NCBI RefSeq assembly: GCF_017349355.1
Contig: NZ_JAFMPM010000006.1
Span: forward strand, 1,488,001-1,552,000
Direction: 5' to 3'
Source of the DNA: Thiothrix fructosivorans
Lineage (GTDB): Bacteria > Pseudomonadota > Gammaproteobacteria > Thiotrichales > Thiotrichaceae
DNA: 64,000 nt
Shown here: positions 10,186-14,609 of the stretch, in pieces
Layout: every line of letters begins with the position of its first letter
How positions within the stretch are numbered: position 1 is the first letter of the stretch
The notes under the pieces: generated by a model
Database searches by the model: none
Seen by the model: only the letters and a program-made list of their open reading frames with translations
What the model was told of the DNA's origin: nothing
Translations under genes and position numbers: made by a program

Positions 10186-11148
10186 ATGTCTCAACAACTC
10201 CCCCCCCTGAATGCCTTGCGTGCCTTTGAGGCTGTTGCTCGCCACTTAAGTTTTACGAAAGCGGCGGTCGAACTCAATGTGACCCGCGCCGCGATTAGTC
10301 ACCAGATTAAATTTCTGGAGGATTACCTTGGCTTTACCTTGTTGGAACGTAAAAATCGCACGATTACCCTCAGTCAAGGCGCAGAAGAGGCGTTGCCCAA
10401 ATTACGCGAAGGTTTTGATAATCTCGCGGAAGCCGTACACTTGATGCGCAGCGAAAAGCATCGGCAAAGCATTACAGTGTTCACCACCCCGTCGTTTGCG
10501 TCCAAGTGGCTGATTCCGCGTCTGCATCGCTTTTCACTCAAACACCCCGATATTGATATGCAAATCAATAGCAACGTTCATCTGATGGCGGCGGATTTGC
10601 AGGGGGATGGCGGCGGTATGGATACCTTTTTCCGCCAGAATCATGTGGATGTGGTGATTGGCTTTGGAGCAGGGCAGTTAGCGGGGGCAGAAAAGTTGTT
10701 TGCGGTGTCGGCTGTGCCAGTGTGTAGCCCGACGTTGGTTAGCAAGACTCACCATCACCCTTTGAAACAGCCTGAAGATTTGGCGTTTCACACCTTGTTG
10801 CATGATGAATCCGATTATATTGGGCATCCGAGTTGGATAACCTGGCTGAAACGCCAAGGTGTGCAGGGGGTAAATGTTAATCGTGGCTTGCATTTTAACC
10901 ACGTTTCCTTGGCATTGGATGCCGCTGTGGATGGGCAAGGGGTGCTATTAGCCATAAAACCATTGGCACAATCCGATATTGACGCGGGGCGATTGTGTAT
11001 ACCGTTCAATTTACCTATCCAATTAGAACATGCTTACTTTATTTTTCGTCAGAAAAAAAACAATAATAATCAAGTGGGTACAAACGTTTTTGTTGAGTGG
11101 CTGCGCGAAGAAGCTCAGTTACAAAGCCGCGAAGCCTCGAAAGGTTAG
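10186..11148 (+). CDS. LysR-family transcriptional regulator, GcvA-like
   Basis: A 320-residue regulator. The N-terminal winged helix-turn-helix reads PPLNALRAFEAVARHLSFTK, then AAVELNVTRAAISHQIKFLE. The wording PLNALRAFEAAARHLSFT is characteristic of the GcvA branch. The effector-binding domain follows from about residue 95 (SITVFTTPSFASKWLIPRL). GcvA itself controls glycine cleavage; here the neighbour is a transporter, which may be its target. A small hairpin (GGTTAG/CTAACC at 11143-11159) overlaps the stop codon. Confidence 0.85.
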   Translation: MSQQLPPLNALRAFEAVARHLSFTKAAVELNVTRAAISHQIKFLEDYLGFTLLERKNRTITLSQGAEEALPKLREGFDNLAEAVHLMRSEKHRQSITVFTTPSFASKWLIPRLHRFSLKHPDIDMQINSNVHLMAADLQGDGGGMDTFFRQNHVDVVIGFGAGQLAGAEKLFAVSAVPVCSPTLVSKTHHHPLKQPEDLAFHTLLHDESDYIGHPSWITWLKRQGVQGVNVNRGLHFNHVSLALDAAVDGQGVLLAIKPLAQSDIDAGRLCIPFNLPIQLEHAYFIFRQKKNNNNQVGTNVFVEWLREEAQLQSREASKG

Positions 11149-11215
11149 CTTTTCTAACCAATGAGTTTAGAAATTGTAGCTTGTCTGCCTAACCTGAAAT
11201 CCATAATAATTGCTG

Positions 11216-11360
11216 CATTGCAGAAAACGAGTGATTCCGGCTTTCTCTCCTCCTCCTAGCGGCGGAATCATTTGCAAGCGCCCACAGCGCATGGACATAG
11301 AGGGTTTCTCTCCTCCTCCTCTCTATCCTCGTGTTCTTGCTGTGGGCGTACTCTTTCTAA
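11216..11360 (+). ncRNA. Candidate small RNA with two anti-Shine-Dalgarno loops
   Basis: No gene fits this gap. Hairpin 1 has arms at 11233-11242 and 11258-11269 (GATTCCG/CGGAATC plus GCT/AGC). Hairpin 2 has an outer stem 11279-11288/11339-11348 (CGCCCACAGC/GCTGTGGGCG) and an inner stem ATAGAG/CTCTAT. Both loops carry the identical 16 bases TTTCTCTCCTCCTCCT although the stems differ. That loop is complementary to AGGAGG. On the opposite strand the loops read AGGAGGAGGAGAG, the GGA-in-loop pattern bound by CsrA. A weak promoter (CATAAT at 11202-11207) supports the + strand. Strand, ends and existence are inferred. Confidence 0.45.
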
Positions 11361-11365
11361 ACTGT

Positions 11366-11956
11366 CTATTGCAGACAAGCCAATAAAGCCAGCGTAATTC
11401 GCGCTGTTGCTCCCCACAGTATTTCCCCGTCATATTCCTGAAAGTAAACCACCGGTATGGGTTGTGCTACATCGTCTAATTGTCGATAGCGTATTTCGTG
11501 GTGTTGTGGTTGGGCTAGCCAGTGCAAGGGAATCGTGAAAGCGCGTGCCACTTCTTGTTCGCTGAGAGTCAGCGGGTAAGGCCACGGCACGGTGGCAACA
11601 ATCGGCGCAATACGGAAGCGGCTAATGCTGTGGTGTGGGCTGAGTTGCCCTAGCACTTGCACATCTGCTGGCAAGATACCGATTTCCTCATGTGCTTCGC
11701 GCAATGCCGTGGCGGTCAGGCTGACATCTTCTGGGTCACGCTTGCCACCGGCAAAAGCCACTTGCCCACTGTGATAATCCCGTACCGAGGTCGGGCGGCG
11801 AATAAACAGCAAATGCCACGCATGTTCGACACGTACAAAGGGTACTAAGACCCCCGCTTCACGGCACGCATCCAGTGCCACGTCGTGCGTAGGGGCGCAT
11901 TCCACCCGTAGGCACTGGCTAATCTCCGTTGCTGTCAATTGATCAATGTTGTGCAT
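11366..11956 (-). CDS. nudL: Nudix hydrolase, CoA pyrophosphatase (NudL) type
   Basis: A 196-residue protein. The Nudix box is complete at about residues 70-92: GGKRDPEDVSL, then TALREAHEEIGI (G-x5-E-x7-REUXEEXGU). The preceding GQVAFAGGK is the block typical of the NudL/YeaB CoA pyrophosphatases, which split CoA into 3',5'-ADP and 4'-phosphopantetheine. The family usually has F-P-G-G; here the proline is alanine. The gene starts three bases after the upstream desaturase gene ends, so the two are one operon. Confidence 0.85.
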   Translation of the reverse strand: MHNIDQLTATEISQCLRVECAPTHDVALDACREAGVLVPFVRVEHAWHLLFIRRPTSVRDYHSGQVAFAGGKRDPEDVSLTATALREAHEEIGILPADVQVLGQLSPHHSISRFRIAPIVATVPWPYPLTLSEQEVARAFTIPLHWLAQPQHHEIRYRQLDDVAQPIPVVYFQEYDGEILWGATARITLALLACLQ

Positions 11957-11959
11957 GAT

Positions 11960-13036
11960 TTAAGTCACTATTGAATACCCACGTAAGCGTTGGGCAAATT
12001 GTTCCAGTGCGGCAACACCGGTTTTCTCGGCATTGCTGATCCACTCTTGTACCGCTTCCAGTCGTGCTTCTTGGCTGACGGTGGTGCGTTCCCATAATTG
12101 ATGCAGGCGTTGCTGATACAGGTAAACGGTTTGCAAGGCTTGGCTTTCGGCGAGTATCGCTTGGTGGCGCAATTCCGCTTTGGTGACGGGTTTGACGACT
12201 TGTTGGGCGAAGTTGGAAAGCACTTGCAAACGGTTGCCGAGTACGGCGGTGACGGTATCAACGTCCACGGTCAGTTTTTGCGGGTTGATACGCAGACGTG
12301 GGGCAAGTTTGCGTACTTTCGCCATGCCGAGCATTTCCAGCAAGCGAATGTAAAACCAGCCAATGTCAAATTCATACCAGCGACTGGAAAGGCGTGCAGA
12401 AGCGGCAAACGCATGGTGATTATTATGCAGCTCTTCGCCACCAATCAGGATGCCGATGGGGGAAATGTTGGTGGAAGCGTCGGTGGTATTCCAATTGCGA
12501 TAGCCCCAGAAATGTGCCAGCCCATTGATAACACCCGCCGCCCAGAACGGAATCCACAGCATTTGTACCAGCCAGACCAGTAAACCGGGTAGCCCGAATA
12601 ACACCACATCAATGACCAACATGAGCACAATCCCCAGCCACGAGTGCGGGCTGTAAAGATGCCGCTCTAGCCAATCATCGGGTGTGCCTTTGCCGTATTT
12701 TTCGAGGGTTTCCTGATTTTTGGCTTCTTGTTTGTACAGCAGTGCGCCTTTCCACAATACGGTGTTGATACCACGGGTTTGCGGGCTGTGTGGGTCTTCA
12801 GGCGTTTCGCATTTAGCGTGGTGTTTGCGGTGAATAGCAACCCATTCGCGAGTAACAGTGCCAGTGGTTAGCCATAACCAAAAGCGGAAAAAGTGGGAGG
12901 GTATGCGCCCCAAATCTAATGCACGGTGTGCTTGGGTGCGGTGTAGAAAAATAGTGACCGCTGCGATGGTAATATGCGTTAAGCCTAGTGTGACCAGCAC
13001 CAATTGCCATCCGCTCAGTTCCGACAGTAAACCCAT
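11960..13036 (-). CDS. Acyl-CoA/fatty acid delta-9-type desaturase
   Basis: A 358-residue integral membrane di-iron desaturase. The three histidine boxes are present: HRTQAH near residue 28, HRKHH near residue 66 and HNNHH near residue 208. Hydrophobic hairpins lie between them. This layout is that of acyl-CoA desaturases (DesC/OLE1 type) that introduce a cis double bond into saturated acyl chains. The C-terminal 90 residues form an extra helical extension. It is the first gene of an operon with the Nudix hydrolase, and divergent from cbiX. Confidence 0.9.
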   Translation of the reverse strand: MGLLSELSGWQLVLVTLGLTHITIAAVTIFLHRTQAHRALDLGRIPSHFFRFWLWLTTGTVTREWVAIHRKHHAKCETPEDPHSPQTRGINTVLWKGALLYKQEAKNQETLEKYGKGTPDDWLERHLYSPHSWLGIVLMLVIDVVLFGLPGLLVWLVQMLWIPFWAAGVINGLAHFWGYRNWNTTDASTNISPIGILIGGEELHNNHHAFAASARLSSRWYEFDIGWFYIRLLEMLGMAKVRKLAPRLRINPQKLTVDVDTVTAVLGNRLQVLSNFAQQVVKPVTKAELRHQAILAESQALQTVYLYQQRLHQLWERTTVSQEARLEAVQEWISNAEKTGVAALEQFAQRLRGYSIVT

Positions 13037-14057: not shown

Positions 14058-14243
14058 GGACACACTCCAAGAAATCGTGGAAGACTTCGACCTTGAACCA
14101 GGGGTTCAAGTGGGTGCGGCGAATGGCTTTCAGGCTTACCGTCGAGCGGTCATGCACACCAAGCCATTACGACCACTCCCGGGGTAAGAAATTAGGCTCA
14201 AGGATAATACCCATCCTCTCACGCGTTCCCCAGAAATGTGTCC
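14058..14243 (-). ncRNA. ssrS: 6S RNA
   Basis: 6S RNA mimics an open promoter and sequesters sigma-70 RNA polymerase. Read on the minus strand, the region follows E. coli 6S block by block: TCCTTGAGCCTAATTTCTTACC (5' side of the bubble), GGTGTGCATGACCG (apical part), GTAAGCCTGAAAGCC, then CTTGAACC...GGTTCAAG near the 3' end. The two ends form an 11-bp closing stem (GGACACATTTC with GGAGTGTGTCC). The 186-nt span equals the usual size. It lies downstream of zapA on the same strand, its standard location. Exact ends are set by the closing stem. Confidence 0.92.
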
Positions 14244-14294: not shown

Positions 14295-14609
14295 TTAGGA
14301 TTTGTGCTTATCCAACACAGCATCCATACGTTGCTGCAATTGTAGCAATTGTTCGGCAAATTGATGGGTTGGTTGTGTCGCCGCTTGCTGCTGTTGTTTA
14401 CCCTGCATGAGTTCATGGGCAAGGTTGAGTGCTACCATGACTGCAATGCGATCACTGCCTAACACCTTGCCTGAATCGCGGATGCGGCGCATTTCTTTAT
14501 CGACGCGGCGGGCGGATGCCAGCAAGGCTTCTTGCTCGCCTTGTGGGCAAGCGACCATGTAATCTTTATCGAGAATGCGCACACCGACGGGCTTTATCTC
14601 TTTTTCCAT
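14295..14609 (-). CDS. zapA: Cell division protein ZapA
   Basis: A 104-residue protein of the normal ZapA length. The N-terminal half is the globular domain (PVGVRILDKDYMVACPQGEQ, ALLASARRVDKEMRRIRDSG) and the C-terminal half is a coiled coil (QFAEQLLQLQQRMDAVLDK). ZapA binds FtsZ and bundles protofilaments at the division ring. It lies five bases after the TIGR02449-type gene and upstream of 6S RNA, as in other gammaproteobacteria. Confidence 0.93.
   Translation of the reverse strand: MEKEIKPVGVRILDKDYMVACPQGEQEALLASARRVDKEMRRIRDSGKVLGSDRIAVMVALNLAHELMQGKQQQQAATQPTHQFAEQLLQLQQRMDAVLDKHKS

Follow-up and report, generated by a model that had tools for sequence, protein, structure and literature searches.

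Between a LysR-type regulator gene (10186–11148, plus strand) and a Nudix-type gene (11366–11956, minus strand), the 64-kb window of the Thiothrix fructosivorans genome that we analyzed contains an intergenic element that very probably gives rise to a functional RNA on the plus strand. Two hairpins with unrelated stems present the same pyrimidine-rich loop, the complement of extended Shine-Dalgarno sequences. This arrangement suggests a stand-alone sRNA whose redundant anti-Shine-Dalgarno loops probably block the translation of mRNAs by Shine-Dalgarno pairing. The conserved structure, the constraint on the loops, the favored strand and a sibling hairpin in another transcript were computed from the genomes compared below. 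For transcription, seed pairing, targets and regulator we infer the following from sequence: Positions 11216–11358 would be transcribed from an own promoter into an RNA of about 140 nt, in which both hairpins would present redundant anti-Shine-Dalgarno seeds UCUCCUCCUCCU and hairpin 2 would also act as terminator. By pairing with AGGAGG-type ribosome-binding sites the seeds would block the translation of a set of mRNAs, like NfeR1 (ar14) in Sinorhizobium. A phasin mRNA probably holds a sibling, a hairpin in its 3’ UTR that would either be processed from the mRNA or act in place. Expression would probably proceed via an upstream dyad, possibly bound by the GcvA-like LysR-type regulator.

The original prediction of tandem hairpins that expose identical 16-base loops on unrelated stems was confirmed. 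The sequence TTTCTCTCCTCCTCCT is present in two exact copies on the plus strand, at 11242–11257 and 11305–11320. With up to 2 mismatches no other copy was found in the window, and 0 copies are expected from 100 dinucleotide shuffles. Searching the 4.36-Mb genome for the first 15 bases with up to 1 mismatch gave no additional match. The reversed control of this 15-base pattern also matched the genome twice, hence CU-rich words of such length are not unique per se. The plus strand between 11200 and 11370 folds with -56.8 kcal/mol, compared to -38.6 ± 4.0 kcal/mol for shuffled sequences (z -4.6, 0 of 200 as low). Hairpin 1 (11228–11274) carries the loop motif UUUCUCUCCUCCUCCU at 11242–11257 and hairpin 2 (11278–11349), which probably doubles as intrinsic terminator, carries it at 11305–11320; both are stable. 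The bases of both motif copies are unpaired with a probability above 0.9; exceptions are the initial base in either copy (0.48) and the final three bases of copy 2 (0.56–0.78). The ends of the sRNA gene (11216–11358) are placed according to promoter spacing and the terminator-like hairpin, and its 5’ end is the invariant CATTGCA. A mobile element or repeat found no support: the element occupies a single genomic locus, and neither 72,556 plasmid records nor 50,697 phage records contained a match at E 1e-5. As to the surroundings, the protein of the Nudix-type gene scored 129.9 bits with a CoA pyrophosphatase model, slightly below the cut-off of 134. A DesA-type fatty acid desaturase with a DesA/ISL3 alpha-bundle tail domain is encoded at 11960–13036 (minus strand). 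The window also contains a 6S RNA at 14061–14239 (minus strand; RF00013, 80.2 bits), beside which a short frame (14295–14609) by eye resembles zapA.

A DNA search of 57 genomes detected the sRNA in 15 of the 16 Thiothrix genomes and in none of the 41 others. We then used a covariance model, which was built from these 15 transcripts of one genus. It matched 15/16 Thiothrix genomes and 6 of 9 genomes of g5, a second Thiotrichaceae genus (E 3.9e-6 to 0.0055, two of these matches being weak with E 0.0014 and 0.0055), but none of the 38 others of the order. With laxer filters the g5 genome G019 was matched as well (E 2.6e-4), bringing the count in g5 to 7/9, and G077 gave a weak match (E 0.35); G008 and G030 had no sRNA match with this model even then. 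G008 is the only one of the 16 Thiothrix genomes without the sRNA in both the DNA and the covariance model searches. In another genome (G003) a second match of the model falls in the phasin 3’ UTR. Among 369 genomes sampled across the class and searched with strict filters, only the genome itself and one weak match (G148, E 0.003) came up; since these strict filters missed G019, absence elsewhere in the class is provisional. G148 lies outside the family and was rejected as a member: the word CUCCUCCUCC is located directly before a terminator, yet folding gave no clear hairpin around it. The matches in g5 are diverged and partly weak. Their stems are unlike the Thiothrix stems, but CUCCUCC-type loops on terminator-like hairpins recur, with two hairpins in three loci (L034–L036).

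Conservation of the structure was assessed in an alignment of the 15 Thiothrix loci. Of 360 pair cells, 96.9% hold standard pairs; when the partners are shifted by 1–3 columns, pairing falls to 30–56%. Double changes occur in 15 of 24 pairs (6 of 9 consensus pairs in hairpin 1, 9 of 11 in hairpin 2), compared to 6.8 ± 1.6 in shuffles. Of five measures compared with shuffles, one showed no excess, namely further pair types (27 versus 25.4, 139 of 500 shuffles as high). Because all 15 loci come from one genus, the shuffle controls overstate significance. The outer helix (UUGC with GCAA) is short and almost invariant and is therefore neither supported nor refuted by covariation. CUCCUCC is kept in loops 1 and 2 of all 15 loci, with runs of 2 to 8 CCU units. 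The suggestion that selection acts on the loop is supported by a constant CUCCUCC on covarying stems. Loss of the loops in close relatives, which would have spoken against it, was looked for, and the loops were kept wherever the element is present (15/16 genomes). The covariance search that had been proposed for related genomes extended the matches to g5. Read on the plus strand, the alignment holds 27 G-U cells, 2 A-C cells and 9 other non-pairs, and the excess of G-U over A-C favors the plus strand as the folded RNA.

The region upstream of hairpin 1 contains promoter-like elements. A putative -35 hexamer TTGTCT is located at 11181–11186 and a putative -10 hexamer TAATAA, which reads TATTAT in several relatives, at 11204–11209 (both plus strand). 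TTGT is invariant, and the 17 nt between TTGTNN and the TAATAA/TATTAT-like hexamer are maintained in 14 of 15 loci; the alignment shows TATGAT in L009. Neither TAGCTTGT nor CATTGCA varies across the 15 loci, and TAGCTTGT was found again in the g5 loci L034–L036. A loose promoter-consensus scan called one overlapping site without excess over shuffles (1 versus 0.8), and a promoter-pattern scan of the genome contigs returned at least 118 stretches, judged by organism to be mostly chance. Further upstream a dyad, GGTTAG-N5-CTAACC, is located at 11143–11159, its left arm overlapping the LysR stop codon in this genome and its center lying 65 bp upstream of CATTGCA. This dyad fits a LysR-type T-N11-A box. 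The arms are fully complementary (6/6) in 10 of the 15 loci and 5/6 in four, and in these 14 the center is 64–65 bp upstream of CATTGCA. In the fifteenth locus (L013) the dyad is degenerate and the aligned sequence is CGTTAGTTTTTCTAATC. For comparison, 2000 random stretches searched over an equal range gave a 6-of-6 dyad in 72 cases and at best a 5-of-6 dyad in 393, at no fixed place. Dyad-like sites were also found in the g5 loci L035, L036, L038 and L182 and by eye in L034, but none was seen in L033 and L037. A wider regulon of this dyad was not supported by the genome search, which gave 1 exact match and 4 places when one mismatch was allowed, against 10 for the reversed control. At the 3’ end a pyrimidine-rich tail (11350–11359, plus strand) adjoins hairpin 2; it is weak in this genome, and two relatives (G011, G015) have a run of 7 U. 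A terminator scan called no terminator on the plus strand at the sRNA, the scan allowing loops of 3–8 nt only. Together, promoter-like elements, dyad spacing, pyrimidine-rich tail and G-U/A-C ratio favor a putative sRNA on the plus strand.

The gene upstream of the dyad encodes a LysR-type regulator (10186–11148) that matches the NCBIfam model NF008352, “transcriptional regulator GcvA”, with 298.5 bits (cut-off 288); it is a possible regulator of the sRNA. In 12 of 15 Thiothrix loci it immediately precedes the sRNA. That it accompanies all 15 was wrong, as the remaining loci (L005–L007) have an upstream frame that by eye resembles an ABC transporter ATPase. Since the dyad is perfect in L005–L007 with this other gene upstream, it is probably part of the sRNA promoter. 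At E 1e-60 neither G008 nor G079 gave a match for LysR; G008 also lacks the sRNA, and G079 has a weak match to it. In g5 a LysR orthologue is present in 8 of 9 genomes; no such sRNA was found beside it, and in 5 of these 8 loci there are single CTCCTC words within about 1.5 kb that are located outside hairpins of this kind. Adjacency in 12/15 loci and joint absence from G008 suggest a link from which g5 and G079 deviate, so we consider control of the sRNA by the GcvA-like regulator plausible, if not quite probable.

The same loop was found on an unrelated transcript. The word CTCCTCCTC has 20 sites in the genome, all of which we folded, and three belong to the sRNA; the reversed control is the same word backwards and hence uninformative. 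A phasin gene (TIGR01841, 41.7 bits, cut-off 30.2) carries two overlapping sites in its 3’ UTR, both within the loop of one hairpin that has the orientation of the phasin mRNA and is located directly before a separate terminator (positions 2002–2116 of L184, near 1356296 on contig C6). Both the phasin gene and this hairpin are conserved in all 16 Thiothrix genomes, including G008, which lacks the sRNA, and CUCCUCC is kept in 15. Hairpin and terminator covary, with double changes in 12 of 20 pairs (8 of 11 for the hairpin alone); the alignment omits two of the three pieces into which the phasin frame of G005 is broken in the assembly (L199, L202) and represents this genome by the third (L201). 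The motif is lost in G004 only (L187), where the loop reads CUCCUUCUUG. As a single case, G004 also has the longest CCU run in loop 1 of its sRNA (L008). G014 carries tandem phasin genes on its contig C5 (L193, L200), each with its own CUCCUC-bearing 3’-UTR hairpin, the one of the second copy containing UCCUCC only. Pairing of the 3’-UTR motif with the phasin ribosome-binding site itself was not supported: with the sRNA loops substituted for the phasin loop we obtained -10.5 kcal/mol, a value reached by 200 of 500 shuffled loops.

The assumption that the phasin hairpin is the only other such hairpin in the genome was wrong. At L167 (about 1456–1560, near 705363 on the same contig) a strong hairpin carries CUCCUCCUCCC in its loop and folds with -44.7 kcal/mol (200 mononucleotide shuffles: mean -31.3, lowest -40.4). 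This word codes for Leu-Leu-Leu in the first codons of a lipoprotein-like frame (1486–2058 of L167), and for this reason the hairpin may have arisen by chance. In G077 (L183) a gene for another protein, rich in Ala and Pro, is followed by a hairpin with CUCCUCCUCCUCC and a terminator, which hints at additional 3’-UTR members.

We weighed three other explanations of the element against these data. Read on the opposite strand, the loop AGGAGGAGGAGAGAAA has three GGA triplets, and the original prediction had considered that it would suit CsrA; a minus-strand RNA could then titrate this protein in the manner of CsrB/RsmZ. The minus strand of the sRNA region indeed forms a somewhat more stable fold than shuffled sequences (z -1.8, 9 of 200 as low). 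However, on this strand the 27 G-U cells turn into A-C mismatches, and the promoter-like elements, the dyad spacing and the tail all belong to the plus strand. Moreover, the phasin mRNA carries this loop in its 3’ UTR in sense orientation. Structure and flanking signals thus argue for the plus strand, leaving the CsrA reading unsupported and very improbable. On the plus strand the element might instead be a cis-acting 3’ UTR and terminator of the gene upstream, here LysR, and no separate sRNA. CATTGCA shares the strand of LysR and starts 67 nt past its stop codon, and the element ends with a terminator-like hairpin. This arrangement does not account for the conserved -35/-10-like elements and the dyad between stop codon and hairpin 1, nor for the 3 of 15 loci in which the upstream gene is a different one, yet dyad, promoter-like elements and RNA persist. 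We regard such a cis-acting element as improbable.

A separate plus-strand RNA could also act on something other than mRNA ribosome-binding sites, if its pyrimidine loops bound a protein or the ribosome and titrated a CU-binding factor. Low-complexity loops of variable repeat number (up to 8 CCU units in loop 1 of G004) would suit multivalent binding, and Hfq, which also agrees with the sRNA reading, is encoded in all 16 Thiothrix genomes. The constant core CUCCUCC, on the other hand, complements Shine-Dalgarno sequences, and NfeR1 and the NmsR RNAs are reported to act through such seeds, so that titration appears unlikely, though less so than the two explanations above. Covarying stems that enclose a constant loop, promoter- and terminator-like sequence on the plus strand and the unrelated phasin hairpin all support the anti-Shine-Dalgarno sRNA that had been proposed from the loops; pairing with mRNAs would follow from complementarity.

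Candidate targets of the putative sRNA were sought among genes with GAGGAGGAG before the start codon. For four such genes the predicted pairing with the loops amounts to -19.1 to -28.9 kcal/mol, which 0 to 3 of 46 window genes match; the four were chosen for having the motif, and GGAGGAG by itself makes a strong ribosome-binding site. One of them is propionate--CoA-ligase-like (prpE; best model NF007815, 611.9 bits on a partial protein, cut-off 955). GGAGGAG before the prpE-like start is kept in 16 of 16 Thiothrix genomes with differing flanks, G008 without the sRNA included. As a potential target the prpE-like gene is suggestive only.

Known systems that invite comparison include the CcsR RNAs, which have CU-rich loops, and sX13 of Xanthomonas, a gammaproteobacterium. 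We compare them here by their published descriptions. CcsR1-4 of Rhodobacter are co-transcribed with ccaF1 and cut from the precursor by RNase E (PMC10253847). The phasin 3’-UTR hairpin is comparably placed after a protein gene, with putative processing in Thiothrix; the gene is a phasin gene instead of the DUF1127 gene in Rhodobacter. By description, NmsRA/NmsRB of Neisseria share two UC-rich anti-Shine-Dalgarno stretches with the Thiothrix RNA, but have three predicted stem-loops and one of the stretches is single-stranded between two of them; their putative interactions include the PrpB and PrpC mRNAs (PMC5362039). In a likeness to the proposed action of the Thiothrix RNA, sX13 has stem-loops whose C-rich loops bring about the repression of mRNAs that carry G-rich motifs in their ribosome-binding sites, and it is described as acting without Hfq (PMC3771888). 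By description it differs in its CCCC or CCCCC loops, its three stems and its gene position, which is always downstream of polA (PMC3771888).

The closest likeness is found in the ar14 or “cuckoo” RNAs (NfeR1, RF02344), in which consecutive hairpins vary in their stems and repeat an anti-Shine-Dalgarno motif in unpaired regions. They present CCUCCUCCC as redundant seeds in three hairpins (PMC10746234, PMC3927594), and the likeness to alphaproteobacterial RNAs that had been drawn from the sequence alone was in this respect apt. The Thiothrix core CCUCCUCCU differs from CCUCCUCCC in the last base alone, and it is likewise held constant on variable, covarying stems. In contrast to ar14, the Thiothrix sRNA has two hairpins and belongs to another bacterial class. 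It scored 17.8 bits (E 0.21) with the ar14 model, below the Rfam gathering threshold of 58.8; no ar14 match up to E 2 was found in 20 related loci, and the best phasin 3’ UTR reached 29.9 bits. Two phasin 3’ UTRs also matched RF02631 (Hrs13) weakly, with 25.5 and 21.5 bits versus a threshold of 52. Membership in a known Rfam family was therefore rejected. Because Rfam score and hairpin number both differ from ar14, we class the sRNA as working like ar14 and not as an ar14 member; common descent is unsupported by this comparison, which suggests a likeness of design only. NfeR1 is described as Hfq-independent and is activated by a LysR-type regulator from a T-N11-A box around -72 to -57 (PMC10746234); the Thiothrix dyad is located at -73 to -57 from the putative start.

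We found no description of the Thiothrix RNA in the literature searched, subscription papers falling mostly outside its range. A group of gammaproteobacterial sulfur bacteria gains a well-defined RNA family that stays below every Rfam 15 threshold and follows the ar14/cuckoo principle, a double-loop anti-Shine-Dalgarno design known mainly from a distant bacterial group. As the loops stay and the stems drift in two unrelated settings, a stand-alone gene and a phasin 3’ UTR, the repeated evolution of generic ribosome-site mimics becomes testable, as does the question how such mimics acquire target specificity. It is a tentative and rather doubtful idea that the Thiotrichaceae independently evolved a “cuckoo”-like network, in which a LysR-controlled sRNA and its phasin-mRNA sibling would tune propionyl-CoA and storage-polymer metabolism. 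If true, the resemblance to NfeR1, which extends to a LysR-type box at nearly equal distance from the start, would represent convergence of a whole circuit.
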